DNA of 64,000 nt, taken from assembly GCA_029964075.1 (NCBI GenBank), contig CM057135.1, positions 32,477,366-32,541,365 on the forward strand, read 5' to 3'. Below the pieces are notes generated by a model. The model searched no databases and was not told the origin of the DNA. It worked only from the letters and a program-made list of their open reading frames with translations. The translations under genes were made by a program, and so were the position numbers. Position 1 is the first letter of the stretch. Each line of letters starts with the position of its first letter. This document shows positions 14,292 through 54,600 of the stretch, one piece after another. This DNA comes from Patiria pectinifera (lineage: Eukaryota; Echinodermata; Asteroidea; Valvatida; Asterinidae).

Positions 14292-15823
14292 GATGGTCTT
14301 CAGTCTGAGGCAATACCCATTCAATGTCATCAAGGTTTTTTACCTTGCTTTTTCTTGTTTTTTAATTTCTATAAAAATTGACCCGTGAGTCGCCCAATCA
14401 GGCATACAAAAAGTAAAGTGAATTTCTGGAATGCAAACACATGGTTACACAAAATTGTTTGCAGGACAGGTTGTTTCTAAATAACGAGGGAGAAAGTGTT
14501 GACTCTTGTTTCAATCAAGAGAGAAAGTGTTGACGAAGTTTGTTTCAACTTTCAAGAAATTTTTATTCAACATCTGCCAAAGAAAATGCTAACTCTGGAT
14601 AGATTGATTCAAGATTTTTTATTCCCTGCACATTTGGGATTTCAATTGATTTTCAGTTTTTGTATCTGGCACTTCTCAAGTTCAACTTTTTTCCGTGATA
14701 AGTTGGTGAATGATCGAGAGTGGCAACAAGAGGCAACTGTGTTAAGAGTCACAGATTCAGGATCTGCTTCCACAATTTAGACCTTGCAGCAACTTTGTGC
14801 AGTCAATAATTTTTCCTCATCATGCAAGCCACTGGGTTTGATTTTCCTCCCTCCAAGGGGTGGAGTCTACCCAATTTTGGAGGGTATATGAAAAAGGAGG
14901 TATGCCTTTGGAAGCTTTTTAAAGCAGGAAACCATTCACATGAACTTGTGCCTTTGTAACGATCACACGAGAGGAAATGCTTAACTGCAAGCTCAGAAAG
15001 TTTTGTCTTTCTGTGAAATTTTTGGGATGCTTTACAAATCCTGCGATTAATTTGAACCTCAATTTTGCTTTTATTGACCAAATTCTGCTAATTAATGCCT
15101 TGATCAAAGCCCTAATTTCCCACTCCAGATTTTCCAATTTTGAAAATTCAAACTGGAGTTTGAATCAACAGTCAGTGGTGTAGCTCATTCTGTATTCGGG
15201 GAGAGGGGAAGGGGCTTACTTTCGCTGAAATTTCTTGCCGGCCCAATCAATTTTAAGGTCAGGCTACAAGCAAGATGGCAATTTTTCTTTTCATTGCAAG
15301 AGTTTTTTTGGCCTTAACATATATAGCCCCATGTAGGACAGTTCTTGCTGACCAGAACTTTCTCTGGAGAAAATTTTCAAGAGAGAATATGACTGACTCA
15401 TAAATTTGTCAGATATTTAATTTTGACTGCTTCACTTCGCTCTTTTGAGCTTTTTCACTCTTGTCTTTGTTCACAATTCTCACATTTGAGAGCTTTTCGC
15501 TCTTTAGAGAGCTTAAATTATCAAGAAAGGTCAAAATCCTCACTTTTGCTTTAAAAGTTTATTGTTATTTTAAATGCCTGAATCAGGGGAATAGCTGACG
15601 AACGGAAACTATTGTCACTGCTTGATTTGGCAGTTTTACATCAAGCTTTTTAGTCAATCGCTATTTTCATGCTTGCTTTTTACATAAAAAAAAGTTGGTT
15701 GTCCACGGAAAACATAAAGTATCTTCGCTGAGTGGATTAACATCCGAAAGTTATTTCAGCAACCCCTCCCCTCTCCCTGAGTTTGCTACGCCACTGCGGT
15801 ATTGCCTCAGACTGAAGACCATC
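14292..15823. repeat. 26-bp perfect inverted pair, 1.5 kb apart
   Basis: The 26 bases at 14292-14317 (start GATGGTCTTCAGTCTGAGGC) are exactly inverted at 15798-15823. Just outside the left copy lie two hairpins (near 14192-14214 and 14245-14266). A hAT-like MITE (15173-15796) abuts the right copy on its inner side. No transposase frame was seen between them. Confidence 0.55.
15173..15796. mobile_element. hAT-like MITE (CAGTGGYGTAGC ends)
   Basis: The left end is CAGTGGTGTAGC and the right end is GCTACGCCACTG. Further in, GGGGAGAGGGGAAGGGG pairs with CCCCTCCCCTCTCCC. CAGTGGCGTAGC is a common hAT-type terminus. No 8-bp target duplication is visible, so the superfamily call is tentative. Confidence 0.5.
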
Positions 15824-17389
15824 TGCACATTACTGCCTAGTTAATATACAGACTACAGCCCTACTCCTAGCCATGAGATACACAGTAGGGTTTAACAAGT
15901 CAGAGGATTGTACAACCATTTCAACATCAGTGCATGAATTGACACTACAAACTTCAATTAAACTTACCACGGAGCTTAGTTTGTGGGACGGCCCCCCCGT
16001 GCCTGATGCCACAGCTTCTGTGTAGGACGCTGACAGGCAGACTGCTTGACCAAATTTTATCCAGACCATTCACCCAGTCGTAAAGGGGCACACTATGTTC
16101 CTGATTTCCCCGTTGTTTTTGCTGTTTCCTTTTCTTGGGGAAGTTTCATGTCAATGCTTTGAGGTGATCAGCAATTTGGACATGCGACAGCGGCAAGTTG
16201 GAACAGAATTGTTTCTGCATTTTCTAAATTGCATTTTGCTCAAACAAAATTAAGTGACTGTAACACACCTTGGGCTTACATTACATGAGTTTTCCAAGCG
16301 TACAACGTCACCCTTTTTAGAAGTACAAGTAACTCATTTGATATCTGGAATGTTTTTTTTCCAGTTTTGTCATTTCTGTTGCGACTTGTAAATTGCTGGT
16401 TTTCCTCCCCCTTTTTTCACTGTTGTTTTGCAAGTAGGGACAATTTCAGGACAACGTTGTGCCCCCTCGATCCATTTGAGTGAATGGCCTGGATGCATCG
16501 TCCACTGAGAAATCTAACAGCATGGTTCTCATTTGTTAAGCACATCAACATTCTTCAAATGCAAATTGGAAAGTTGGGCTTCCTTTTTTTCCATTTTGTC
16601 TTTTTTTGCTGCTTTCTATTTCTTTTTGATTTCTTTTTACTTGTTTTGAAATGATGATGGCAGATTGTAGATCTATACAACTGAACAGTTGTTCAATGTG
16701 GTCAGGTATTTATGCAAATTTGATTTCTCTTCGGTAAATAAATTGCATCATTTTTCTCAGTCTTTTTGCTGGTTTTGATAAAATGTCTTGAGATGTTTCT
16801 CAAATGACATTGATCAATATAGAGTTTCTTTGCCTCAAAATCAGGGAATGCTTTTCAAAACAAATATCACGAAAACTTTGTGTTTTAGGGTTTTCATTTG
16901 TTTCACTATTCGAAATTCCTTGTAAAATGCCTGATTTTTTTTTCACAAAGTGAATGCTTGGCTATTACTGATCTTATTAAAAGTTTTTTTTTTATACATG
17001 TGCTACCAAAACCACCATGAATTTTTTTTCGACAGATTAAGTTTTTTTAAGGTGAAGTTTACACCATTGTTTGTTTATTCCTTTGCTTCACAGACGTAAT
17101 GTCTCCTTTTTGGCTACACTTTGGCTCACAACCACATTTAAAATTGTTTTTAAGGTTTCCAACCTGAACGGTACATTTTGTTATGAGTTTCGACAAAGTC
17201 ATGGAACCAATAGCAGAGAGATTTTAGAGTTACACCAAGGAAGTTATCGATATAAATGGCATCAATACAATCGTTCCTAAACTCCAACAACTTTGAAAAA
17301 AATCCAAGATTGTCAAATATCCAATAGTTACAATGAGTAACCAGTTGGAAAAGTTTCATTTGTGTGGATACATAAAAACATGACGTACT
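15824..17389. other. gene-free stretch
   Basis: T-rich and AT-rich sequence with no recognisable exon, RNA gene or intact element. Confidence 0.45.
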
Positions 17390-17740
17390 GCAAAAGCAGA
17401 AATGCAAAGCGGGCGATTTCAGAACAGATGCAAAAAGGGTTCTCCTTGGTCTGCCAACACTGGAGAGGTGCTCGTGATCTGTCATTGTAGAACCGACTAA
17501 GAACCAATCGTAAGAAGTTTTCAGGATCCTTACCATGTTGCAGTCCACCGAGGCATCCACGATCCACCCAGACGAAAAGATCAGGGACGTCTTTCTGCAC
17601 ACATCACCCACCGAACAGCCGATGCACAAGTCGATGCAGATAGCGGGCGACCACCAACCTGTCGGCGCCTGCGGGCGGGGAACACACGTGCACGCACCGG
17701 GGAGGGGGGGCTGTGTGCAGCTGGGCTGCTCGAAACATTT
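17390..17740 (-). repeat. diverged dispersed repeat, copy 2 (inverted)
   Basis: Homologous in inverse orientation to 10866-11285. The 231-codon minus frame across it begins and ends in sequence outside the shared part and has no recognisable domain, so it is not called a gene. Confidence 0.55.
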
Positions 17741-17845
17741 ACATTTTTGAGAGAGTGCCTGGTGGTGAAACGTACAAAAATTAACGTGGTTATTCACATT
17801 GGTTTTGTTTTGTAAAATTAAGATGTAACCTGCAACCTTTAACAA

Positions 17846-19439: not shown

Positions 19440-20170
19440 GAGTTGAGTTCAAAGCTTGTAGCTTCCTTTCAACGTTGTGTTGTAGCACATTTCAACCAGA
19501 TGAGGTGATGAGTTGTAAAGGTTGTAGCTTTTTTGCAACGTAACAATCGTCAACCAGATGAGGGGATGACAATCCTAAATGTTGTCTCAACAAGACTGAG
19601 ATGGTTTGATTGACAGCTTGTCACATGTTTGCGACATAAATGTAGCAATCCTCTGCGTTGTAGCACATTCCAACCAGATGAGGTGATCAGTTGTAAATGT
19701 CATAGCTCCTTTGCAACGTAACAATCCTCTACATTGTAGCATATTCACAACCTGTGATGCTGATCGTCCAACATTTGAAGATGACTGAGAAGTTCTGCTG
19801 AAAGCATGTCAATTTTTTTCAAAGTACCAAAATGTAGCAATCCTCTGCGTTGTAAAACATTCCAAGCAGATTGAGATGTTGAGTTCACAACTTGTAGCTC
19901 CTTTGCAACGTAAGAATCTTCTGCGTCATAGCACACTCGAAACAGATGAGACTGATGAGTTGTAAAGGTTGCAGCTCCTTTGCAATGTAACAATCCTCTG
20001 CATTGTAGCACACTCCAACCAGATGAGACTGATGAGTTGTAAAGGTTGCAGCTCCTTTGTGACGTACCAATCCTCTGCATTGTAGCACACTCCAACCAGA
20101 TGAGACGGATGAGTTGTAAAGGTTGTTGCTCCTTTGCAACGTAAAAATCCTCTACGTTGTAGCATATTTA
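19440..20170. repeat. degenerate 77-78-bp tandem array 3' of COQ2
   Basis: About nine imperfect units contain ATTGTAGCACACTCCAACCA, GATGAG, TTGTAAAGGTTG and CTCCTTTGCAACGTAA. The best units are at about 20000 and 20078. The array begins about 80 bp beyond the COQ2 stop, so it would lie in the 3' UTR or just past it. Overlapping minus-strand frames here all translate the same repeat. Confidence 0.8.
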
Positions 20171-20252: not shown

Positions 20253-23200
20253 CTATTCGCTAGTTGCCTGTTCCTTCTCCTTGTCCAATTTGGTTGAACT
20301 GTCTGAATCTTTGGTTGAAACTTTCGCCAGGGTTCCCGCGATGATCCCGGCAAAGATGATTGCACCCAGTCTGTTGTTGGAGCGGAATTTGGTCCAGCAG
20401 TCTTGGGGATTGTGGATGTCCACCGTCCAGACCTGTGGGTGAATTAGAAAACTGTCACTAAAGTACAGAGATTCCTAAAACAGTGTTGCAGTCAAGTCCA
20501 TCACAAGTCAGGTCCAATCAAATTTTCAAATGAACTATGACAAAGGCATTCTTTTGAAAGAACTCATCCGCTGTTGCCTGCAACTTGACTTATTGTGATG
20601 AACTCATTTGCAGTATTGCCTCCAAATAAATCAAACAAATAAAATATCCCTTTCCCTTAATCGACGCCTCTCCAAGACAGCCATCTTCGAAGGAAAATTA
20701 CAACTGCGTGTTCAACACCATCAGGTGCATGTGCGCGCAGTGTGCAAAATGTTCCAAACATGTTGCTCAAATTTTCTTCAAAATATGGCGCAGCCAAAGA
20801 GCGTCACTAAAATTTGATGCCCAAAATGCCGCTGGCACGTGACAATCTGTAGGAAGTGACGTCATTTGAGAGAGACCTATAGAGATCCTTCACAGCCTAC
20901 CACTCAGTTTTAGGAGGATGTTTGCCTCTTCAAAGATTAAGTTTAATGAAATTGACATAATTGATGCCATAATGGGGATATTACACTGTGGCAGATTTGA
21001 GTGGGTTCAGGGAGATTTCTGAGAACAGTATCGTGGGAAGGTTTCTGACAAACTACCCTGGGAGAATAGCTAGAGAAGCTAAGGTTGAATGCACAAACCA
21101 AGACTGGACAATTCTGTAAATAACATTTGCACCTTCAGAAAGTAACAACAGTTATTGGTTGCAGATTTACGTTGCTTGACATTAGGCCCCAAACCCTTTT
21201 AAGCATATTCCTAAAAAATTTTGTCCTAAGAATGTTGTGTCCTTGGGCAAGCCACTTCATCCCCACTTGCCTCTCTCCACCCAGGAGTATAAATGGGTAC
21301 CAGCATTAGCTGGGGAGTAACCTGTGATGGACTAGCATCTCATCCAGGGGGAGTAGCAATATTCTCAGTCGTTTCATGCTACTGAAACCGAAGATAAACA
21401 CGGGCCACATTGGCTCGTGACAGACCTTACTACTTTTACTTAGAATTTTTTGTGAATCCTCCAAAAAGGGAACAATTAATTGATCAAAAGAAATCCTTGC
21501 AGGCCTAAAACAAACCAATCAAGCAACCAACAGACAAACCCAAAGTCAAGCTTTAAGCTTACCTGGTTGCTAATATGAGCAGCCGTCAGCGCTACAGCGA
21601 GGTAGTATGCCACAGTCTGCTCAGCCATAGCACCAATGACCATCAGACCAGACACCATAGCTGCACCAAAGCCTGTCAACCAATATTTGGTGTTGTCTCC
21701 CATCAGGATGGAGGTGGAGCCTAGGCCGAGGGCCATGTCGTACTTCTTGTCCTGCGCATTGAGAGTAAAGGAGGAGATACGAAGTGACTATTGGCTGCAT
21801 GCATGCACAAGTGATGCCAGAAAAGGCAAAGGGACAAATTTTTTTGAGCATTGAAAGTAGGACACACAAAGTGAGTATTGGCTCTACGGCTGTCCCGAAT
21901 ATACCAAATACTCGATCATCAACTGAATATTCGAATAGCTTTTTGCCGGTTTGAATATTTGAAAACAAAAAACTTTGCACATACACACACGACTGTGATG
22001 TTATTTTATCATGAAGTTGCGGCGCGCCTTTGTCAGGTGCCACATTTTGGTCGGGGGTAACTTTTTTTTGGTCGACAGCGGTTCATCATTCACATCCTTT
22101 TAACCCTGCCAGACGCAGCACAGTGCATCAGGTGGAAAAGTCTGGTGCACTTTGATGCATTCAGCTACCAACACCAGTGCATAAACGGCCACTGGTGAGA
22201 CAATGAGAGCTAGTCCCATTGAACAATGCCACAGTTGTATCCTGCTGCGTTGGGGGACCACAGACTCTGAGGCAGTTTGGCCTTGAGACTTTTGACCTGA
22301 TGTATCTTGCTACACTGGGCAGGCTTGTCACTTAGACAAGTGTTGCATGTTGCTGCGTTTGACAGGGTTTCTAGCCAAAATACCACATTTTGTTTTGCAA
22401 TTGGTTACACATCCATGATTGGGTGCAAGCCAGCTAGTATGGTTCCCTGACCCAACAATTCCCTGACATCTATAAATTGCAACGTTTTCTCAGGGAACCG
22501 GACTACAAGAATAGCATTTTTTCCCCCTGGTTTTTCCAGCATCTTTGAACACAAAACTTTAAAAGGGTCAGTGTAACAATATAAGATAAAATACTAACCC
22601 CAAAATCCATCCATTTCTGAAAATCACAGCAGAAACAAATGTTGTATATTACCTTTAAGTAATGATCCATAATCAAGAATAACAGATGGTTTATAGTAAA
22701 AACACTCTGCTCATGAATGACTTACCTGATGTCCATAAATGGTATCATAGATAACAGTCCAGGCAATACACGACACGTACAGCGGCAGAACAATACTCCA
22801 GTCACATGACCCATGGACGGCCGAGTAGCCAATCAGAGCACTGAAGTTGGTCGTCACACCTGCAAGCAGAATAATCACGGTATTGAATTCCGATCAAATC
22901 AAGGTATCTTTTATTTGACATTGGCCATAATAAAATGCTCAAAGGTAATGGTAAAAATAAAAATGTGAGTGCACAATAAGCTCTGGCCGTCTTGCATGAA
23001 AGTCTTGCATCAAATCAATCAAAATGATCCATGCGACGCCCAAACATACGACGCCGGGCTCCTTTCCGCACCAGTGCCAAGTACAAGCCAGGGACGTCCC
23101 ACGCAAAAATCATCCTGCTCTATATACCATGTGACTATAACGTTGCTGCACATATTTAGCGTCCATTTATTTACAAACTTTTCATAAACATCTTTCCAAA

Positions 23201-26200
23201 TTGTTACACACAATTTTTGTTCAGTATGAAATTTATTTTGTTTGCTTTTTGTTTAAAAATTTCAATTTGGTAGTTATATTTTATGGGGAACTTAGTGGGC
23301 TTATGTTGGTAAATTTTCGGGGACAGACAAATGCAAAATAGACGATGGAAACAAAGCCGGTGTTCCGAAAACTTTCGGCAAGAGTGCATTTTATGACCAA
23401 CGCATGGCATTTGGTCAATTAGTCAATTATTTTTGGTCAAATATTTTTGGTCAATTTTCAGGGACAGACAGACACCACGACAGACAGACAGACGGACTGA
23501 CCGACCGACCGACCACCAAGTGACATGTAGAAGCTCCTGCCAGAGCTTAAAAACTTACCAAGAAAGATCTGTGGCCAGTTGGTAAACCTCTTCGCGAGTG
23601 GATATAGAACCATGGGTACAACGGCAAGGCATCCCAGAGTTATGCTGTTGAGAAAATGAAATGTGGAGACAAATATAACGATAAAATATGATCCGGATAA
23701 AAGTGTGGTTTCAGAGTTGTAGGGAAAACACAGTATACATTTATAAGATTTCTGGACCACCAAGGTGAATGAACACTAGAAACTCCACACAATTTATTCT
23801 TAATTTTCCATCCACTAGATCATTCCCCCAAACTAAGTCCTTGTTACGGTTCACAATGGCCAACTTTCCTTTTTGCTGACTGTTGCCCTATTTTATGACT
23901 CTAGCAACTAAGGAATTCTAGCACGAAAATTCTGCTCATGTTTTTGTAAGGTATAGGAGTTTTGGGATGTGTGCTTCACAAACATGTCAAAATTTTTTGC
24001 TAAACTGTGATTTACATGTACGCTAACAGTATACAGTTGAATGATAATTAAACAAACACTGTCTGAACAAATATTCACCTTCCAAATTAATGTACATGTA
24101 AAGTTATTTTTGACATTAGCAGCTGACCAACCCCTATACCAAATAGCCTTTTGTGTTTGCTACGGTGACGTTCTACTGCAGCTAGCGAAGAAACTTTGCT
24201 TATTTAGTAGCCTGACTTTGCACTGTAACAAGTGCTTCGTAATAACCTACCTGTATGGGTTTAGATTGAGCAGTATTCCCAGCGCCAGGCTAAGTTGACC
24301 TCCTAGGAACACCAACGCCTGGCTGCGACTGATGGCACCTGATGCGATGGGCCTAGTGTTAGTCCGCTCAACCTGCAATCAATAAATCAACAAAGAAGGT
24401 GTTACAATAAGCCAGTTCTGTATTTCAACTGCGCATGCGCACAATGATATGGGTCACGGGTCATTCGGGATAATCGAAGGCGTATGAACGCGCACGGAGA
24501 CGGGCGCACGACACTCGTGCGCTAATTACAACCAGAATATCATCACGTCAGTGACTTTATCCCGAATGACCTTTGACCTGGACTACTTCATCGAGATAGC
24601 GAACTAGCTTATATTAGACAACGTTCAAATCAAACCTTGGCATTGGTTTGGTGTTTTAACTATTTCACACAGAAAACACTACAGTCAACCTGATTCCATA
24701 CACTGACAGATTACACTGCATGCACATGGTTACACTTTCAACTTTCAAATTCACATTTTGCAATATAAACTGTATCAGTTGTCTCATTATGGGACTAATT
24801 AAGTCAGCATAAGTCTTGTAAAATTGTTTAGCAACAACATGTACCCCTGAAGTCCAGCAGCTGATTTCACAAAAAAGTGCGCAGCACCAAGCGTAGGACT
24901 TACGCAACAAATTTATTGCACAGCTGCGCAATAAACTTAAGATCGATTTCACAAAACGTGGAGTAGCTGCACAACGTTTTAAATGCTTTTAAATATCTTG
25001 GACGAGGTTAATAACAGCGTTTTCAACAGCTGTTTGTGAATGATTGTGTTCGTTTATGTAATCGTCGTTGAAATACCTCCCCCCGCCATTATGAAATGAG
25101 TTTTTCTCCGATTTTCTTCGGAATCATGCGGCAATTCTAAAAATTCTGTCACGAGTAAAACAGAAATGCATGTGCCTTAAACGAAACGCTGTGTCTTGTG
25201 TTAACCTCAATAAGTTGCGCAATGTTTGAATTCATGACAACCACGATTTGCTAGTAAAAGTGACATTTTCATTCGCTTCGCCATATCTAACGCCAACTAA
25301 GATGACTGCGCAAGTTAGGCCATAATTTGTAAAACTTTTGTGACATGTGTCATAATTGAACTGTTGTAGAGTGAGAAATGTTGCGCAACTTACGCGTTAA
25401 ATTGTGACGCAAGTGGAGTTGCGCCGTTGAGTAAACGTTCGTGAAATCGGCTGCAGTGCAAAATGTCTACTCATGCATGTAACAGGGGGAAAAAGACTTG
25501 TCCTCAGTGAGGCGCTCTATGCAAGGGGTCTAACTGTAGCCTTATATAGAAGTCAACTGCGAAACAACAGTGCTCACGTACACGTCCTCTCGGATTCAAA
25601 ATTCACAGGGCCAACAAGAATAAGGGCAACTATGGTAAAGTCTACTCACGGCTTTGTCAAAGTCCCTGTCCCACATATCGTTGATGGTACAGGCAGCCCC
25701 ACGGACCACCAGAGCAGCCAGGCCACACAGACCCAGCATGTACAGGCTGGGGAGATGACCTGGGTCTGCTGCTAGAGCGATGCCCCAAGCACACGGCCAG
25801 TAGACCAACCAGGTACCTGCAATAAAAAGAAACACAGTGACACTGAGATACATGTTTCTGCAACATCTGACTCGGGAACATTTCTGAAGTTACTGGTCTC
25901 CATATCGGGATTATTTTACTCGACATCGATGCCAGGAGGGTTGAACCATCAACTGCAGGAATCAGACTCATATTTCCAGCTGAACCCCCTTGGCTCTGAC
26001 TTGCAGACAGAGTTTTTTCCGGCTTCGCTCGTGACGTGTGTACACGTCATTGGTTTTGAATTTTGTAAAATCGCTGCGTGTACGTACATGTCCTCTGACG
26101 CGAACTGGTTTAATAATCAAAATTTGCTCTTTTATCCCAATCCTTAATATGACTTCTGACGAGCAGTAGTCTACTTGTCAAAATATCACTGAGACCTTAA

Positions 26201-26733
26201 AAATTAAGCCAGATTTTCTCCGCTCAACAATTTCACAAGAGCAAATCACTTTCATATGAAAAGAAAGTCCACAAATGCTCACCTGTTGGTCTGTCTAATC
26301 TTATCAATCTCAGGTAGGGCTGGACTTGGCTAGGAGTTGCATCCACCATGGAACTCATCAGGCTCATGTTGCGTCTAGTTGTCCACGCATCACATCTTGA
26401 ACTCTGCCCTTCCTGACGACACCCAGGAAGCAGCGTCTGCTGTCGATTAAGTTGGGAGTACCCTTGAAACATTTGCAGTTCAGTTTGCAGTTTCCGGTGA
26501 AGTAGGCTCCGAGTCCAACAGATATGTCCTCCATAAAACGACGAATGTGCACACTGGCAGCGTCTGCTGGACAGTCCCTCTGAAAGTAAACCAGTTGATG
26601 CACGCGCAAGCGACAGTTGTTTGCCATAATTCCAGTCAGTCAACGGCAAGCTTGATTTGGAGCACGTGAAAGGCAGTGGGTGACGAGGTAGTGAAATGGA
26701 GTTCCATCTTCCAAACAGTTTGCTGGAAAGCAT
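20253..26733 (-). CDS. COQ2: 4-hydroxybenzoate polyprenyltransferase, mitochondrial
   Basis: Attaches the polyprenyl tail to 4-hydroxybenzoate in ubiquinone synthesis, in the mitochondrial inner membrane. Coding exons in gene order: 26733-26283, 25816-25650, 24372-24251, 23644-23559, 22859-22726, 21751-21563, 20432-20253. All joins are GT-AG and keep frame, total 442 residues plus stop. Residues 1-140 are long and basic (starting [10 protein letters not shown]), a mitochondrial presequence. [12 protein letters not shown] precedes the UbiA domain. The first Asp motif NDMWDRDFD is at about 196-204 and the second, DTIYGHQDKKYD, at about 314-325; both bind Mg-diphosphate. Several hydrophobic helices lie between and after them. 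The start is fixed by an in-frame TAG three codons upstream. A 41-bp minisatellite begins 2 bp beyond the ATG and another tandem array follows the stop. An extra upstream non-coding exon is possible. Confidence 0.93.
21220..21445 (+). mobile_element. SINE copy 1, CTTGGGCAAGCCACTTCA type
   Basis: It contains GTGTCCTTGGGCAAGCCACT, CTCTCTCCACCCAGGAG, TATAAATGGGTACC, GGGGAGTAACCTG and CATCCAGGGGGAGTAG, ending near GACAGACCTTACT. It matches 50850-51137 over about 200 bp. The tRNA-like head is not obvious here. It lies in COQ2 intron 6, just 3' of exon 6. Confidence 0.7.
22100..22370. mobile_element. possible TTAA-type MITE, family C
   Basis: TTAACCCTGCCAGACGCAGC at the left pairs with GCTGCGTTTGACAGGGTTT at the right, with two internal mismatches. 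The left TTAA is intact but the right one is not. It lies in COQ2 intron 5. Confidence 0.45.
23462..23515. repeat. GACA/GACC microsatellite
   Basis: GACAGACAGACACC runs into GACCGACCGACCGACC in COQ2 intron 4. Confidence 0.85.
24456..24572. repeat. short foldback in COQ2 intron 2
   Basis: GGTCATTCGGGATA is exactly inverted as TATCCCGAATGACC about 90 bp away. Probably a small MITE. Confidence 0.55.
24856..25457. mobile_element. MITE in COQ2 intron 2
   Basis: GCAGCTGATTTCACAAA at the left pairs with TTCGTGAAATCGGCTGC at the right (two mismatches). A further GATCGATTTCACAAA copy lies inside. No coding capacity. Confidence 0.55.
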
Positions 26734-26735
26734 TG

Positions 26736-28720
26736 TTGCCTAGTTCTGTTTCTGGCTGCTGTGCTGATCATCTAAGGTGCCTAGTTCTGTTTCCGGCTGC
26801 TGTGCTGATCATCTAAGGTGCCACGTTCTGTTTCCGGCTGCTGTGCTGATCATCTGAGGTGCCTAGTTCTGTTTCTGGCTGCTGTGCTGATCATCTAAGG
26901 TGCCTAGTTCTGTTTCCGGCTGCTGTGCTGATCATCTAAGGTGCCTAGTTCTGTTTCCGGCTGCTGTGCTGATCATCTAAGGTGCCTAGTTCTGTTTCTG
27001 GCTGCTGTGCTGATCATCTAAGGTGCCTAGTTCTGTTTCCGGCTGCTGTGCTGATCATCTGAGGTGCCTAGTTCTGTTTCCGGCTGCTGTGCTGATCATC
27101 TGAGGTGCCTAGTTCTGTTTCCGGCTGCTGTGCTGATCATCTGAGGTGCCTAGTTCTGTTTCCGGCTGCTGTGCTGATCATCTGAGGTGCCTAGTTCTGT
27201 TTCTGGCTGCTGTGCTGATCATCTAAGATGCCTAGTTCTGTTTCCGGCTGCTGTGCTGATCATCTAAGGTGCCTAGTTCTGTTTCCTGCTGCTGTGCTGA
27301 TCATCTGAGGTGCCTAGTTCTGTTTCCTGCTGCTGTGCTGATCATCTGAGGTGCCTAGTTCTGTTTCCTGCTGCTGTGCTGATCATCTGAGGTGCCTAGT
27401 TCTGTTTCCGGCTGCTGTGCTGATCATCTGAGGTGCCTAGTTCTGTTTCCTGCTGCTGTGCTGATCATCTGAGGTGCCTAGTTCTGTTTCCTGCTGCTGT
27501 GCTGATCATCTGAGGTGCCTAGTTCTGTTTCCTGCTGCTGTGCTGATCATCTGAGGTGCCTAGTTCTGTTTCCGGCTGCTGTGCTGATCATCTGAGATGC
27601 CTTGTTCTGTTTCTGGCTGCTGTGCTGATCATCTAAGGTGCCTAGTTCTGTTTCTGGCTGCTGTGCTGATCATCTAAGGTGCCTAGTTCTGTTTCCAGCT
27701 GCTGTGCTGATCACCTGAGGTGCCTAGTTCTGTTTCCGGCTGCTGTGCTGATCATCTAAGGTGCCTAGTTCTGTTTCCTGCTGCTGTGCTGATCATCTGA
27801 GGTGCCTAGTTCTGTTTCCGGCTGCTGTGCTGATCATCTGAGGTGCCTAGTTCTGTTTCCTGCTGCTGTACTGATCATCTGAGGTGCCTAGTTCTGTTTC
27901 CGGCTGCTGTGCTGATCATCTGAGGTGCCTAGTTCTGTTTCCGGCTGCTGTGCTGATCATCTGAGGTGCCTAGTTCTGTTTCCGGCTGCTGTGCTGATCA
28001 TCTGAGGTGCCTAGTTCTGTTTCCGGCTGCTGTGCTGATCATCTGAGGTGCCTAGTTCTGTTTCCGGCTGCTGTGCTGATCATCTGAGGTGCCTAGTTCT
28101 GTTTCCAGCTGCTGTACTGATCATCTGAGGTGCCTAGTTCTGTTTCCGGCTGCTGTGCTGATCATCTGAGGTGCCTAGTTCTGTTTCCAGCTGCTGTGCT
28201 GATCATCTGAGGTGCCTAGTTCTGTTTCCGGCTGCTGTGCTGATCATCTGAGGTGCCTAGTTCTGTTTCTGGCTGCTGTGCTGATCATCTAAGGTGCCTA
28301 GTTCTGTTTCCGGCTGCTGTGCTGATCATCTGAGGTGCCTAGTTCTGTTTCCAGCTGCTGTACTGATCATCTGATGTGCCTAGTTCTGTTTCCGGCTGCT
28401 GTGCTGATCATCTAAGGTGCCTAGTTCTGTTTCCGGCTGCTGTGCTGATCATCTAAGGTGCCTAGTTCTGTTTCTGGCTGCTGTGCTGATCATCTGAGGT
28501 GCCTAGTTCTGTTTCCGGCTGCTGTGCTGATCATCTGAGGTGCCTAGTTCTGTTTCCGGCTGCTGTGCTGATCATCTGAGGTGCCTAGTTCTGTTTCTGG
28601 CTGCTGTGCTGATCATCTGAGGTGCCTAGTTCTGTTTGTGCCTAGTTCTGTTTCCGGCTGCTGTGCTGATCATCTGAGGTGCCTAGTTCTGTTTCCGGCT
28701 GCTGTGCTGATCATCTGAGG
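26736..28720. repeat. 41-bp minisatellite, 48 units, abutting the COQ2 start
   Basis: The array is 1985 bp, which equals 48 units of 41 bp plus one 17-bp partial unit near 28638. Each unit has GTGCCTAGTTCTGTTTC, then GCTGCTGTGCTGATCATCT. Main variants are CCGG/CTGG/CCTG/CCAG and CTGAGG/CTAAGG. On the COQ2 strand every unit has ATGATC, opening a 14-codon frame that stops at the TGA overlapping the next unit's ATG. The unit nearest COQ2 instead reads past the COQ2 ATG in another frame. Whether the array is transcribed as 5' UTR or lies in the promoter cannot be told from sequence. Confidence 0.95.
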
Positions 28721-29504
28721 ATGCAAAGAAAACAGGACGAAAACACTTTATAGGGCTTGTATTAATCATTTCACCAAATTATTTATTTGTCTAACAGTAA
28801 CAAGAGCAAGTCTAGTAAAACTAGTCCCTTACCAGTTCAAGTCAGCCTGCACTTGAAATTCTATTCAACTGATTCAGAACGGCTATTCAATGGCTATTCG
28901 CTTTTCAAGCAATTACACAACTGACCTATCGCCGTTTGCGAGTTAGCCACGCCCCTTAGACAATGTATGGAGTTTTGGTACATTAAGTTTTGTATGTCTC
29001 AGATTTTGTGCTTTCCGCATCCATTTGTTTATCATGTAATTGGACAATTATTATTTTACAAGCTGCGTTGAAGCGATTCTAACGCGATTGTACCGTGATA
29101 GCTCAATTAGCTTGATTTTCCAATCAGTGGTTTTACGAGGTAATCATATACAACAGCACTGCCCGACTCTCTCCACCAGCCTAAAACCAGTTAAGTCAGT
29201 GACACTCAGCCAGTTGGTCAGTCTATCACTCAGTCAGCTTGATATGTGATATAAAGAAGACACTAGCCTACATTTTGTGATCGGCCCGTCTGACGCCACC
29301 CGCGATATGCACTATTAAGACAGTGTCAATGGTCGGTTCCTAGACCAAAAGACTCTGATGTCACGCCAACAACACGCTTCGCGTGCGACGAGCATGTTAA
29401 AATGTTGAACTCAAACTGTAGCTTCGGTAAGGAAAGGGGTCTGTTTTCATCATTTTTGTGCATCATCGGGATCAATTCAACCCTTATACTTTTTAGCGAA
29501 ATGA

Positions 29505-30145
29505 ATGCGAACTACTCCTAGAACTAGGCAGCTTACCCCGCAAAACTGTTTGCCTCTACAAAACACCAACTAAGTACAAAAACGTCCATCACAATCAAGC
29601 TTTTTCCCACAGAACCGCTGCACAGTTTGCCCCTAAACTCCGTACAATACCTCATGACATACTTACGTTATGTGCACCAAACAAACATCGGTGGATTCTG
29701 TCCGTTTTTCGGCAAAAATGATGAAAAGTATGCCCTTTCTGCACTGAGCCAACCTGAAACTTGAAACGTGCACGCGCGTAGAATGATCGCAGTCATTTTC
29801 GGTTCGATCGCTCGGAGCGCGCCGCGGCGGGGGTACGGTAGGAGCGGAACGATAATATGCGCATGCGTACAAGTGCAAGTACGTACCCCCCACGGCGCGC
29901 TCCGAGTGATCAAACCGAAAAAGACTGCGATCATTCTGCGCACGTGCACGTTTCAAGTGTCAGGTTGGCTCCGTGCGGAAAGGGCATATTTTTCATTATC
30001 TTTGCCGAAAAACAAACAGAATCCACCGATGTTTGTTTGGACGTTTTTGTACTTAGTTGGTGTTTAGTAGAGGCAAACAGTTTTGCGGGGTAAGCTGCCT
30101 ATGTACGTGGAGCCTCATAGTTCTAGGAGTAAACGCAAACATGTC
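29505..30145. repeat. large imperfect palindrome, about 0.64 kb
   Basis: The centre is GCGCATGCG near 29865-29875. The arms match through GGCGCGCTCCGAG, GATCATTCT, CACGTGCACG, CAGGTTGGCTC, AAACAAACA, CGTTTTTGTACTTAGTTGGT, GCAAACAGTTTTGCGGGGTA and GTTCTAGGAGTA. About 80 bp near 29590-29670 are present only in the left arm, and a short stretch only in the right. Opposite-strand frames here are mirror translations. It is probably a long-TIR element or a local inverted duplication. Confidence 0.85.
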
Positions 30146-51600: not shown

Positions 51601-54600
51601 TATTCAGGTGTTGTATAAAAAAATAATGAATGATTCGCATCCATGCAATGGAAAGAATAATTTGTTCAGTGACAGACGGAATGTAGCTTTCCACGAGGCT
51701 TCAAACTTTCCATCTGTCACCTCATGATATTATTCTTACCATTGCACTTATAAACTTTCATTATTTGTATACTAAAGCAGGCTTAAATTTCCTGAAGCCA
51801 AAGACAAATTAAAGGTTTCCCAAACCGCCATGGAACACTGAATTCTGTACATACCATGATGTTCTTGCTGTTGAGATAGAAGCGTGGGATGAGTGGCTCC
51901 ATGGCATGCAGGAAGGCCATACCACGGGCAATGTCTACCGCAAAGCGAAGCGTCTGAGCTTGATCAATCATCACATCTAACCAACAAAAACAACAACAAC
52001 AACTATTAGAGGTTTTTTCCTACGGCATTTTTCATTGAATACTAGTGTACCATTATATTGTAACGAAAATGCAACTCCTACTTATTTTTTTTAGCTTAGC
52101 TAAGAAACAGTCTGTACTAACAAAGTTTAACCCCAACTCCCTAGGCATTTTTTGCTAAGATGCAACCTCAACGCTGCAAAATCCTCCAACTGCCTCCATT
52201 TAAGAATTGCAAGCAGCCCCAATCCTCCAAAATCATATTATTTCTTGAATGAGGTCCTTGGAGGGGTGACCACCGCCTCAATCCTGCAAAATCCTCCAGC
52301 AATCACTGTCAATATGTTGAGGCAGAACCAGTGACATCCTGAAGCAGTGCAGAGGATTTCAAGTATTATTTAGGCCTACATTTATGCATGGCTGAGCATA
52401 AACAACACAAGGTCCGGCCTAAAACCTTGACACAGTGCAATCAGCCACACATTTTTGCAATATATATATAGCCTCAATCCTGCAAAATCCTCCATTTTGC
52501 ATAGAGAATTTTGGAGGATTTGGGAAGGTTAGGGTTAAGTGGGTTCCCCCCCCCCCCAAAAAAAACCCCCACCAACAACCTGTTTTGTGAATTAGGCAAA
52601 GTAAAGAAATCTGGCTGCTGAGTCAAGCTATTTCAAGTCTTGCAGAAAGGTTTCAGCATAATTGCTGATGAGTATAAGCAAACAATCACCAGTTTCCCAA
52701 GCTGGTAAAAAACCCCAAACCTTCTCTTACCTGACGCCTCGTGGAGAAGATGAAAGAGTGATCCCCGAGGCAGGTACTCACTCAGCACAATCAGGCTAGG
52801 AGGGTGGTTAACGCAGCCCAGCACAGCGTGGATGTTGGGATGGGAGAAGATGCGTAGGCGGGGGAACTCCTCCCCAAACTCCCGCGAGATGCGCGACGTG
52901 ATGTTGTGCTGCTGCAAGACCTTGGCCATGACCTCCGTGCCTTGCCACATACCCTTCCACATCTGGAGACAGATAAGGTAACAAACGGGATGATTGAGAG
53001 GATGACAGAAAGAAAGACAGACACCCTGACAGACACCCCGACAGACAGGGTGACAGATCTTATGACAGAGAGCCCAACAGACAGGGAGACAGACAGAACG
53101 ACAGACAGGTAAGATAACAGACGGGATGATTGAGAGGATGACAGACAGAATGACACACACCCCGACAGACACCTCGACAGACAGGGTGACAGATCTTATG
53201 ACAGAGAGCCCAACAGACAGGGTGACAGACAGAACGACAGACAGGTAAGATAACAGACGGGATGATTGAGAGGATGACAGACAGAATGACACACACCCCG
53301 ACAGACACCTCGACAGACAGGGTGACAGATCTTATGACAGAGAGCCCAACAGACAGGGTGACAGACAGAACGACAGACAGGTAAGATAACAGACGGGATG
53401 ATTGAGAGGATGACAGAGAGAATGACACACACCCCGACAGACACCTCGACAGACAGGGTGACAGATCTTACGACAGACAGCCCGATCAACTGGGCAACAG
53501 ACAAGTTGACAGAAAGAGGGATGGTCTGGGTGACAAACAGGGTTACAGACAGGGTGATGGACAGGCTGATACTTGTGCATCCTTAAACCAAAAACAATCC
53601 AGGCATTTTGTTTTTGCTGGGAACTTTCCTGAATCCTTACAAATAAATAAAGATTAAGTTGGAAGATGGGTTTACTGGTAGCTTTAATTCTACAAACACT
53701 GTATATTCTGTGCTTTGCAAGAGCTAGTGAGAAAATCAATTCACCGATTTTGGTGGTCGAATGATATCTGCGCTAGTAAGCAGGTAGCTGGTTCGAGTCC
53801 CACCAGAGTAAACTTGTGATTTTATTTTTCTCACAAGCTCTTGGAAAGCACTGGGTACTAGCCAGAATCATGTCCATACCTCGCCAGTTGGGCTGCTGCC
53901 AACTTTGGTCTGCAGCTTCACATGCTTGAGGTCAATCCCGGCAAATCTTGAGAGTGTTCCATCTCCTGACATACAGAAAGATATCCAAACGTGTGAGCAT
54001 GAAGTCAGCCTTAACCTGAAATTCCCTAGTACTTTTTCCAAGAAACTTGGTTGATCCTGTTTTGTACTTTAACTTTTAAAGGTAGAGTATATCATCTGCA
54101 GCTATCCAACGAAAAGTATTGTTGACAAGCATACTTGGTTTAAAGATAGTAATGGCAGTAAACTACCTGTGAAATTATTCTTTCTGGCATGCTGTCATTT
54201 TGAAGAAAATAATAACAGAAGGTCATTTCCAAAGATGCGTCTAAAGACGCATTTGGGAAATTTCTGTTAGTAGTTCATTTTTAATTCGGCAAAGCCATGA
54301 ATGGGTGCCCGCAAGCGTTGACACGACACACACGCGTGCGGTTGCTATAAGTCGTTGGTTCAGTGTGCGACATTGCGCAACTGGAATTGGCTGAATGAGA
54401 ACGTGTCCCGGACGCTGATTTCGGGCGCAATTCAAAACATGACTCGGCAACTTTTAAATTGAAATCGAGATCCTAGAATATTGTTTAAATGAAAAAAAAA
54501 TGCACAAAAGACAAATGATATTCCTTTAAGAGGTATGTATGTATCCAGTTCCATGTAAATAAAAAGTGATTGTGCTGTAGTTGTTCAATCCTAACAGATT

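Follow-up and report, generated by a model that had tools for sequence, protein, structure and literature searches.

A 41-bp minisatellite beside the start codon in one of two COQ2 genes of Patiria pectinifera, and its probable origin from the gene's own leader

The 28-bp repeats of the human TYMS enhancer region (TSER), usually present in two to three copies, are transcribed and affect expression, and the leader of yeast GCN4 contains multiple upstream ATGs (uATGs). Several upstream ATGs are also described before the main start in the leader of BACE1 (PMC2991327). In amphioxus, mirage minisatellites are described in Adh3 and in the globin genes BflGb6 and BflGb9, formed by tandem duplication at an intron/exon boundary, with units of 10–72 bp in Adh3 and of 150–160 bp in the globin genes (PMC3087553). 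Concerted evolution is reported within the clusters, many of the units carry AG/GT signals, and BflGb6 has 6 and 3 units in two haplotypes (PMC3087553).

Here we describe a minisatellite at a COQ2 gene of Patiria pectinifera. Like the amphioxus mirages, it is a minisatellite-like tandem array in a gene, with 48 units of 41 bp and an edge 3 bp from the open reading frame, and it is probably a mirage-type member situated in a leader exon, the boundary of which is predicted. The window, that is, the whole stretch of DNA analysed (64 000 nucleotides), corresponds to C7:32477366–32541365 in a eukaryotic assembly of 613.5 Mb. Positions are those of the window, except for the second COQ2 copy, which is numbered on contig C7. 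A literature search, mostly of titles and abstract openings, found no description of a minisatellite array of upstream open reading frames (uORFs).

The array and its upstream frames

The array occupies positions 26737..28720 and is described on the minus strand, the strand of the gene, on which its consensus is CCTCAGATGATCAGCACAGCAGCCGGAAACAGAACTAGGCA. Parsing it unit by unit gives 48 full units and one partial unit of 16 bp (28623..28638, minus strand), which interrupts both the repeat phase and the chain of frames described below, so that the frame opening at 28673 reaches TAG after 15 codons. Tandem Repeats Finder reports a period of 41 at 26737–28637 (46.4 copies, 96% matches, 0% indels) and two further perfect copies at 28638–28720. 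The last repeat base is 26737 and the COQ2 ATG is at 26733–26731, leaving a gap of 3 bp (26734–26736) where the first-pass annotation had counted 2 bp. The same annotation had given the array length as exactly 48 × 41 + 17 and concluded that homogenization was recent. The 48 units stand; the remainder is 16 bp long and internal, not a terminal 17 bp, and the length does not imply recency. The low divergence of the units is a better argument: 14 unit types are present, with a mean pairwise difference of 3.8 per cent, and nine of the 41 positions are variable among the 48 full units compared. With these corrections, the array itself is real and beyond chance.

The genome contains at least 47 matches to the unit at three mismatches or fewer, and all 47 are inside the COQ2 array, as are all 13 matches listed by a BLAST-type genome search; among the matches listed, none at up to three mismatches was found outside the array in this genome. 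A genome search with the 140 bp beyond the far edge of the array returned the self-match only. The observed/expected ratio of CpG is 0.21 in the array versus 0.66 in the rest. In the CCGG of the unit, the two CpG positions are altered in nine and 12 of the 48 units, and only one site, a G/A site (14 units), is more variable. This loss of CpG is in part as expected from CpG methylation. Coding by the plus strand of the array was considered and rejected, because a period of 41 is not divisible by three and the longest plus-strand frames touching the array have 48 amino acids.

On the gene strand, the array contains 47 ATGs before that of COQ2 (all were listed, then recounted). Forty-five of them open frames of 14 codons, 44 of which close on ATGA, the stop codon overlapping the next ATG, and one on GTGA, the ATG of the following unit being lost. 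One further frame has 15 codons and closes at TAG, where the 16-bp partial unit shifts the phase. The last array ATG opens a frame of 43 codons (26640..26771, minus strand), which overlaps the COQ2 start in another frame. The first-pass annotation had the ATG of every unit opening a 14-codon frame with TGA/ATG overlap, which applies to 44 of the 47 uATGs and fails for the GTGA, 15-codon and 43-codon cases; its figure of about 43 codons for the last frame agrees with our count. Upstream ATGs with stop codons are thus present before the main ATG in the DNA (47 frames). Their context is poor: ATGA follows CCTCAG or CCTTAG in 44 of the 47, and the uATGs have C or T at position –3, where the COQ2 ATG has A.

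The chain follows from the period. When the period is of the form 3n + 2 and the unit contains ATGA, the TGA of the next unit falls in frame, so that the chain is automatic unless another stop intervenes. Dinucleotide-shuffled 41-mers give an ATG/TGA chain in 15 per cent of cases on one strand and in 21 per cent on either, and a random unit with ATGA at period 41 gives one in about 70 per cent. Variation does not clearly spare the ATGA positions (one of four variable, versus eight of 37 elsewhere in the unit), and the number of independent observations of the chain is one unit, not 48. As 15 per cent of the shuffles produce the chain and ATGA shows no special conservation, the chain is no evidence of function. 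It looks like a by-product of arithmetic, arising from ATGA in the unit and a period of 3n + 2, and is not beyond chance; neither the shuffles nor the variability of ATGA indicate selection on uORF signals beyond chance. An impressive ‘uORF chain’ can arise easily from repeat arithmetic.

Other arrays are present in the window and elsewhere in the genome. In three of six 10-kb genome samples, arrays with a period of 7 or above and a length of 200 bp or more are found, one of them being a 40-bp × 17.5 minisatellite. Those with a period of 30–60 and at least 10 copies number three in the 153 kb scanned (two without the COQ2 array), about one per 50–77 kb, in a sequence set that includes the window, itself not a random sample. 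By a rough estimate, a genome of this kind with an assumed 25 000 genes would have about 3 to 10 start codons within 5 bp of an array edge by chance. In the window, Tandem Repeats Finder detects several further arrays. One of them (136 bp × 3.8; 52967–53483, minus strand) ends two bases before the AG preceding a putative kinase exon (Pfam kinase match), which we take to be ILK-like; it appears to be a second mirage-like array, placed at the predicted splice acceptor of this exon. Another (51 bp × 20; 1–1029) lies within an open frame of 344 amino acids cut by the window start and is possibly a coding minisatellite; the Pfam matches of this frame are weak and sub-threshold only. The RNA families found in the window at gathering scores amount to one tRNA.

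The two COQ2 copies

The COQ2 gene of the window is complete, with 442 codons on the minus strand in seven intact exons separated by GT-AG introns. According to the gene model, the coding part of exon 1 is at 26283..26733, exon 2 at 25650..25816, exon 3 at 24251..24372, exon 4 at 23559..23644, exon 5 at 22726..22859, exon 6 at 21563..21751, and exon 7, with the stop codon, at 20253..20432. The best NCBIfam match is TIGR01474 (344.4 bits, above the cut-off of 275.45), which confirms as COQ2-like the gene named COQ2 in the first-pass annotation. Among the aspartate-rich motifs, NDMWDRDFD is retained, and DKKYD, in exon 6, where the second copy (see below) has DKRDD, keeps its first and last Asp. 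The fourth place of the latter is occupied by Tyr in the window copy, by Asp in the second copy and by Glu in 21 of 21 bacterial outgroups. These outgroups are UbiA sequences picked by two conserved peptide patterns; all are SAR116-type alphaproteobacteria, mutually close and very distant from the gene. A 77-bp × 4.3 array at 19834–20164, about 90 bp 3′ of the COQ2 stop, is perhaps in or beside the 3′ UTR.

A UbiA-family search of the same genome revealed a second COQ2 copy, absent from the first-pass annotation, at 36.046–36.057 Mb of contig C7, 3.5 Mb from the window copy; other UbiA-family matches are on C6 and C18. This copy has 466 codons, with exon 1 at 36056611–36056095 and exons 2–7 at C7:36.046–36.049 Mb, separated by GT-AG introns. 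It is the more canonical COQ2 (TIGR01474, 373.5 versus 344.4 bits) and is without the array, none being found in its leader by Tandem Repeats Finder.

Synonymous divergence between the copies is 0.86 over exons 3, 4, 5 and 7, and they are therefore old paralogues, not alleles. It is only 0.26 over exons 2 and 6, which for this reason look gene-converted; 25650–25816 and 21563–21751 are likely to be short gene-conversion tracts, largely confined to exons. The ratio dN/dS is 0.22 over exons 2–7, exon 1 being excluded from the rates because its alignment is too poor. In a maximum-likelihood tree with the distant bacterial outgroups, the branch of the window copy is five times longer than that of the second copy (0.167 versus 0.032). 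Where the copies differ (42 positions), the outgroup majority residue is retained by the second copy at six, by the window copy at five and by neither at 31, in a relative-rate comparison whose bacterial outgroups are all close to one another and very distant from COQ2. Similarity to the second locus continues collinearly downstream of COQ2 (15763–17781, three pieces with 73–87% identity), so that the duplication was probably segmental. The frames tried in this interval gave no Pfam match. Similar foldback elements with inverted arms are located upstream of both copies, at about 29535–30137 in the window and about 1620–2240 in L030.

The COQ2 start codon of the window copy (26731..26733, minus strand; context GGCAACAATGC) is placed by the listing of frames and by alignment with the N-terminus of the second copy. 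Exon 1 is open from the ATG to the donor in both copies, which by shuffling has a chance of 0.00075 for the window copy (0.075% of shuffles) and of 0.0001 for the second. Both N-termini are basic (five K + R and zero to one D + E in 40 residues), and they align with each other beyond shuffles (p 0.011–0.035). The ATG next to the array was thus probably inherited as the start codon, because the first exon of the second copy opens with a similar N-terminus. The same genome contains two COQ2 copies that have diverged; the leader predicted for one is 45 nt long, and the corresponding interval of the other is a 2-kb minisatellite.

Origin of the unit and position relative to the transcript

With both sequences anchored at the ATG, the 46–60 nt upstream of the second copy were aligned with the last 1.2–1.6 units of the array and compared with a null of 3518 genomic 80-mers preceding an ATG. 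In 15 of 16 settings, only 0–9 of the 3518 were as good, and 41 in the other. When leader and unit are aligned locally without the anchor, the match is weaker, with 8–212 of the 3518 as good in seven of eight settings and 1699 in the other; against three consensus units, 23 of the 3518 score as well. Dinucleotide shuffles give p-values of 0.028 for 25 nt and 0.007 for 41 nt, and for 60 nt none of 5000 shuffles scores as well; removal of the last 5 nt gives p = 0.23 (25 nt), 0.03 (41 nt) and 0.0004 (55 nt). In the best alignment, the acceptor AG of the second copy pairs with an AG of the unit different from the one at the array edge. These comparisons lend moderate support to the view that the leader of COQ2 itself was the probable source of the array.

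Candidate signals were found at the gene-distal edge of the array. The best splice-acceptor-like site upstream of the start codon, TGTTTTCTTTGCATCCTCAG (28715..28734, minus strand), scores 5.52, within the top 1.3 per cent of 3333 background AGs, under a small model trained on 12 introns, all from these two COQ2 genes. Under the same model, 28715 ranks first among the AGs from 28840 to the window ATG, and 36056657 (5.89, top 1.0%) ranks first in the 250 nt above the ATG of the second copy. The leaders predicted from these best acceptor-like AGs measure 1981 nt in the window copy and 45 nt in the second. AGs internal to the array score –2.81 or less, and a pyrimidine-rich tract is present only at the far edge. 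In the last unit, the AG at 26772 scores –13.1, with 96.7 per cent of the background AGs as high or higher, and the best AG scores –3.99 (40% of background). No better acceptor was found inside exon 1, where the best scores are 0.76 for the window copy and 1.16 for the second.

About 30 nt before the array, a TATA-like hexamer, TATAAA (28747..28752, minus strand), is the sole TATAWA of the gene strand from position 28860 down to 26283. It is a candidate only, TATAWA being expected in 4.9 per cent of 60-nt stretches, and would place the transcription start near 28722. With either the acceptor-like site or the hexamer, the mRNA would include the array in full. A comparison of the two 70-nt stretches preceding the acceptor-like sites gives no support to homology of the boundary: in three settings, 196, 192 and 177 of the 254 matched null sequences do at least as well. 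As the best acceptor-like AG and the only TATAWA are both at the far edge and the AGs near the ATG are poor, a position in the leader (5′ UTR) is the better-supported reading of the sequence.

Interpretation and comparison with known systems

To the interpretation of the array as a leader-derived, mirage-like minisatellite in one of the two COQ2 copies we give an even chance of being correct. The 5′ boundary of the leader would probably be a 3′ splice site or, failing that, a transcription start directed by the TATA-like hexamer, and the short stretch between this boundary and the COQ2 start codon would have been tandemly amplified to about 2 kb. The array would be transcribed as the 5′ leader, and its 47 uATGs would then block most translation of the window copy. 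The canonical second copy, by supplying COQ2, would explain how such silencing is tolerated. Because a long-silenced coding sequence should decay, the intact coding sequence of the window copy, with its dN/dS of 0.22, fits silencing only if the expansion is recent or if expression persists. If the 47 uATGs are skipped independently, a skipping of 80 per cent at each lets a fraction of 3 × 10⁻⁵ of the scanning ribosomes reach COQ2, and one of 95 per cent lets 9 per cent through; tuning by unit number would require about 98 per cent or more per uATG. If the array is in the mRNA, strong repression of the window copy is expected and tuning by length is unlikely. A bolder version, which we regard as a long shot, is that leader amplification has built a translational lock on a duplicated COQ2: 47 overlapping stop–start uORFs, variable in length between individuals, would keep the copy near-silent until start-site choice, splicing or stress-induced skipping bypasses them.

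The array could instead be upstream DNA serving as a satellite promoter, with transcription starting in its last one or two units and a short leader containing one or two uATGs, although we consider this rather unlikely. An expressed copy must in some way get round the 47 uATGs, which on the above arithmetic nearly abolish translation, and TATA-less start sites are common in animals. However, TATAWA is absent from the array and from the gap between array and ATG, the only one nearby lying beyond the far edge, and the ETS-like CCGGAA, a motif of promoters of mitochondrial genes, shows no sign of selection, since its CCGG is kept in only 27 of 48 units. Less probable again is a spliced-out array, in which CCTTAG in the last unit (26772) acts as the acceptor for an upstream exon and the minisatellite is intronic. 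The resulting leader of 38 nt would resemble the 45 nt of the second copy, CCTCAG or CCTTAG precedes the ATG in 44 of 47 cases, and amphioxus mirages are reported to leave regular splicing undisturbed (PMC3087553); the poor acceptor scores of the last unit (–13.1 at 26772, –3.99 at best) and the confinement of the pyrimidine-rich tract to the far edge speak against this reading.

The proposal of the first-pass annotation, that the frames act as an array of functional uORFs and that COQ2 output is tuned through the number of units, is highly improbable. The frames are present in the DNA, their ATGA overlap is of a kind that allows stop–start coupling in some viruses and bacteria, and A stands at –3 of the COQ2 ATG versus C or T at the uATGs. 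Against this idea, the chain is a matter of arithmetic, obtained in 15 per cent of shuffled units, ATGA has no special conservation and the uATG context is poor. Output would be near zero after a few units unless skipping were near complete, the overlapping last uORF is independent of unit number, and the RNA folding of five units is ordinary (z = –0.34). We judge least probable of all a window copy that is dying after duplication, with the array as irrelevant sequence decay at its 5′ end. In favour of this reading are departures at positions where all 21 bacterial UbiA outgroups agree, two glycines among them, the Tyr found where the second copy has Asp and all 21 outgroups Glu, and the fivefold longer branch; the seven intact exons with GT-AG introns, the dN/dS of 0.22 and an outgroup-residue count that is not lopsided (6 versus 5, neither 31, of 42) all oppose it, and the outgroups behind these comparisons are the mutually close, very distant alphaproteobacteria described above.

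As two gene copies are paired here, the locus is a good natural case, bearing on the fate of such arrays (retention in mRNA, removal by splicing, or bypass) and on the extent to which genes tolerate upstream ATGs after duplication. Compared with the amphioxus mirages, the boundary of the COQ2 array is predicted only and its exon side would be a non-coding leader ending at the start codon; the array has 48 units, whereas BflGb6 has 6 and 3. TSER resembles it in being a tandem repeat that closely precedes the coding sequence of an essential metabolic gene. TSER has no uORF chain, and it is transcribed and affects expression, which for the COQ2 array is a prediction. BACE1 and GCN4 present a handful of unique uATGs in proven transcripts, whereas the COQ2 array presents 47 near-identical ones in a predicted leader.
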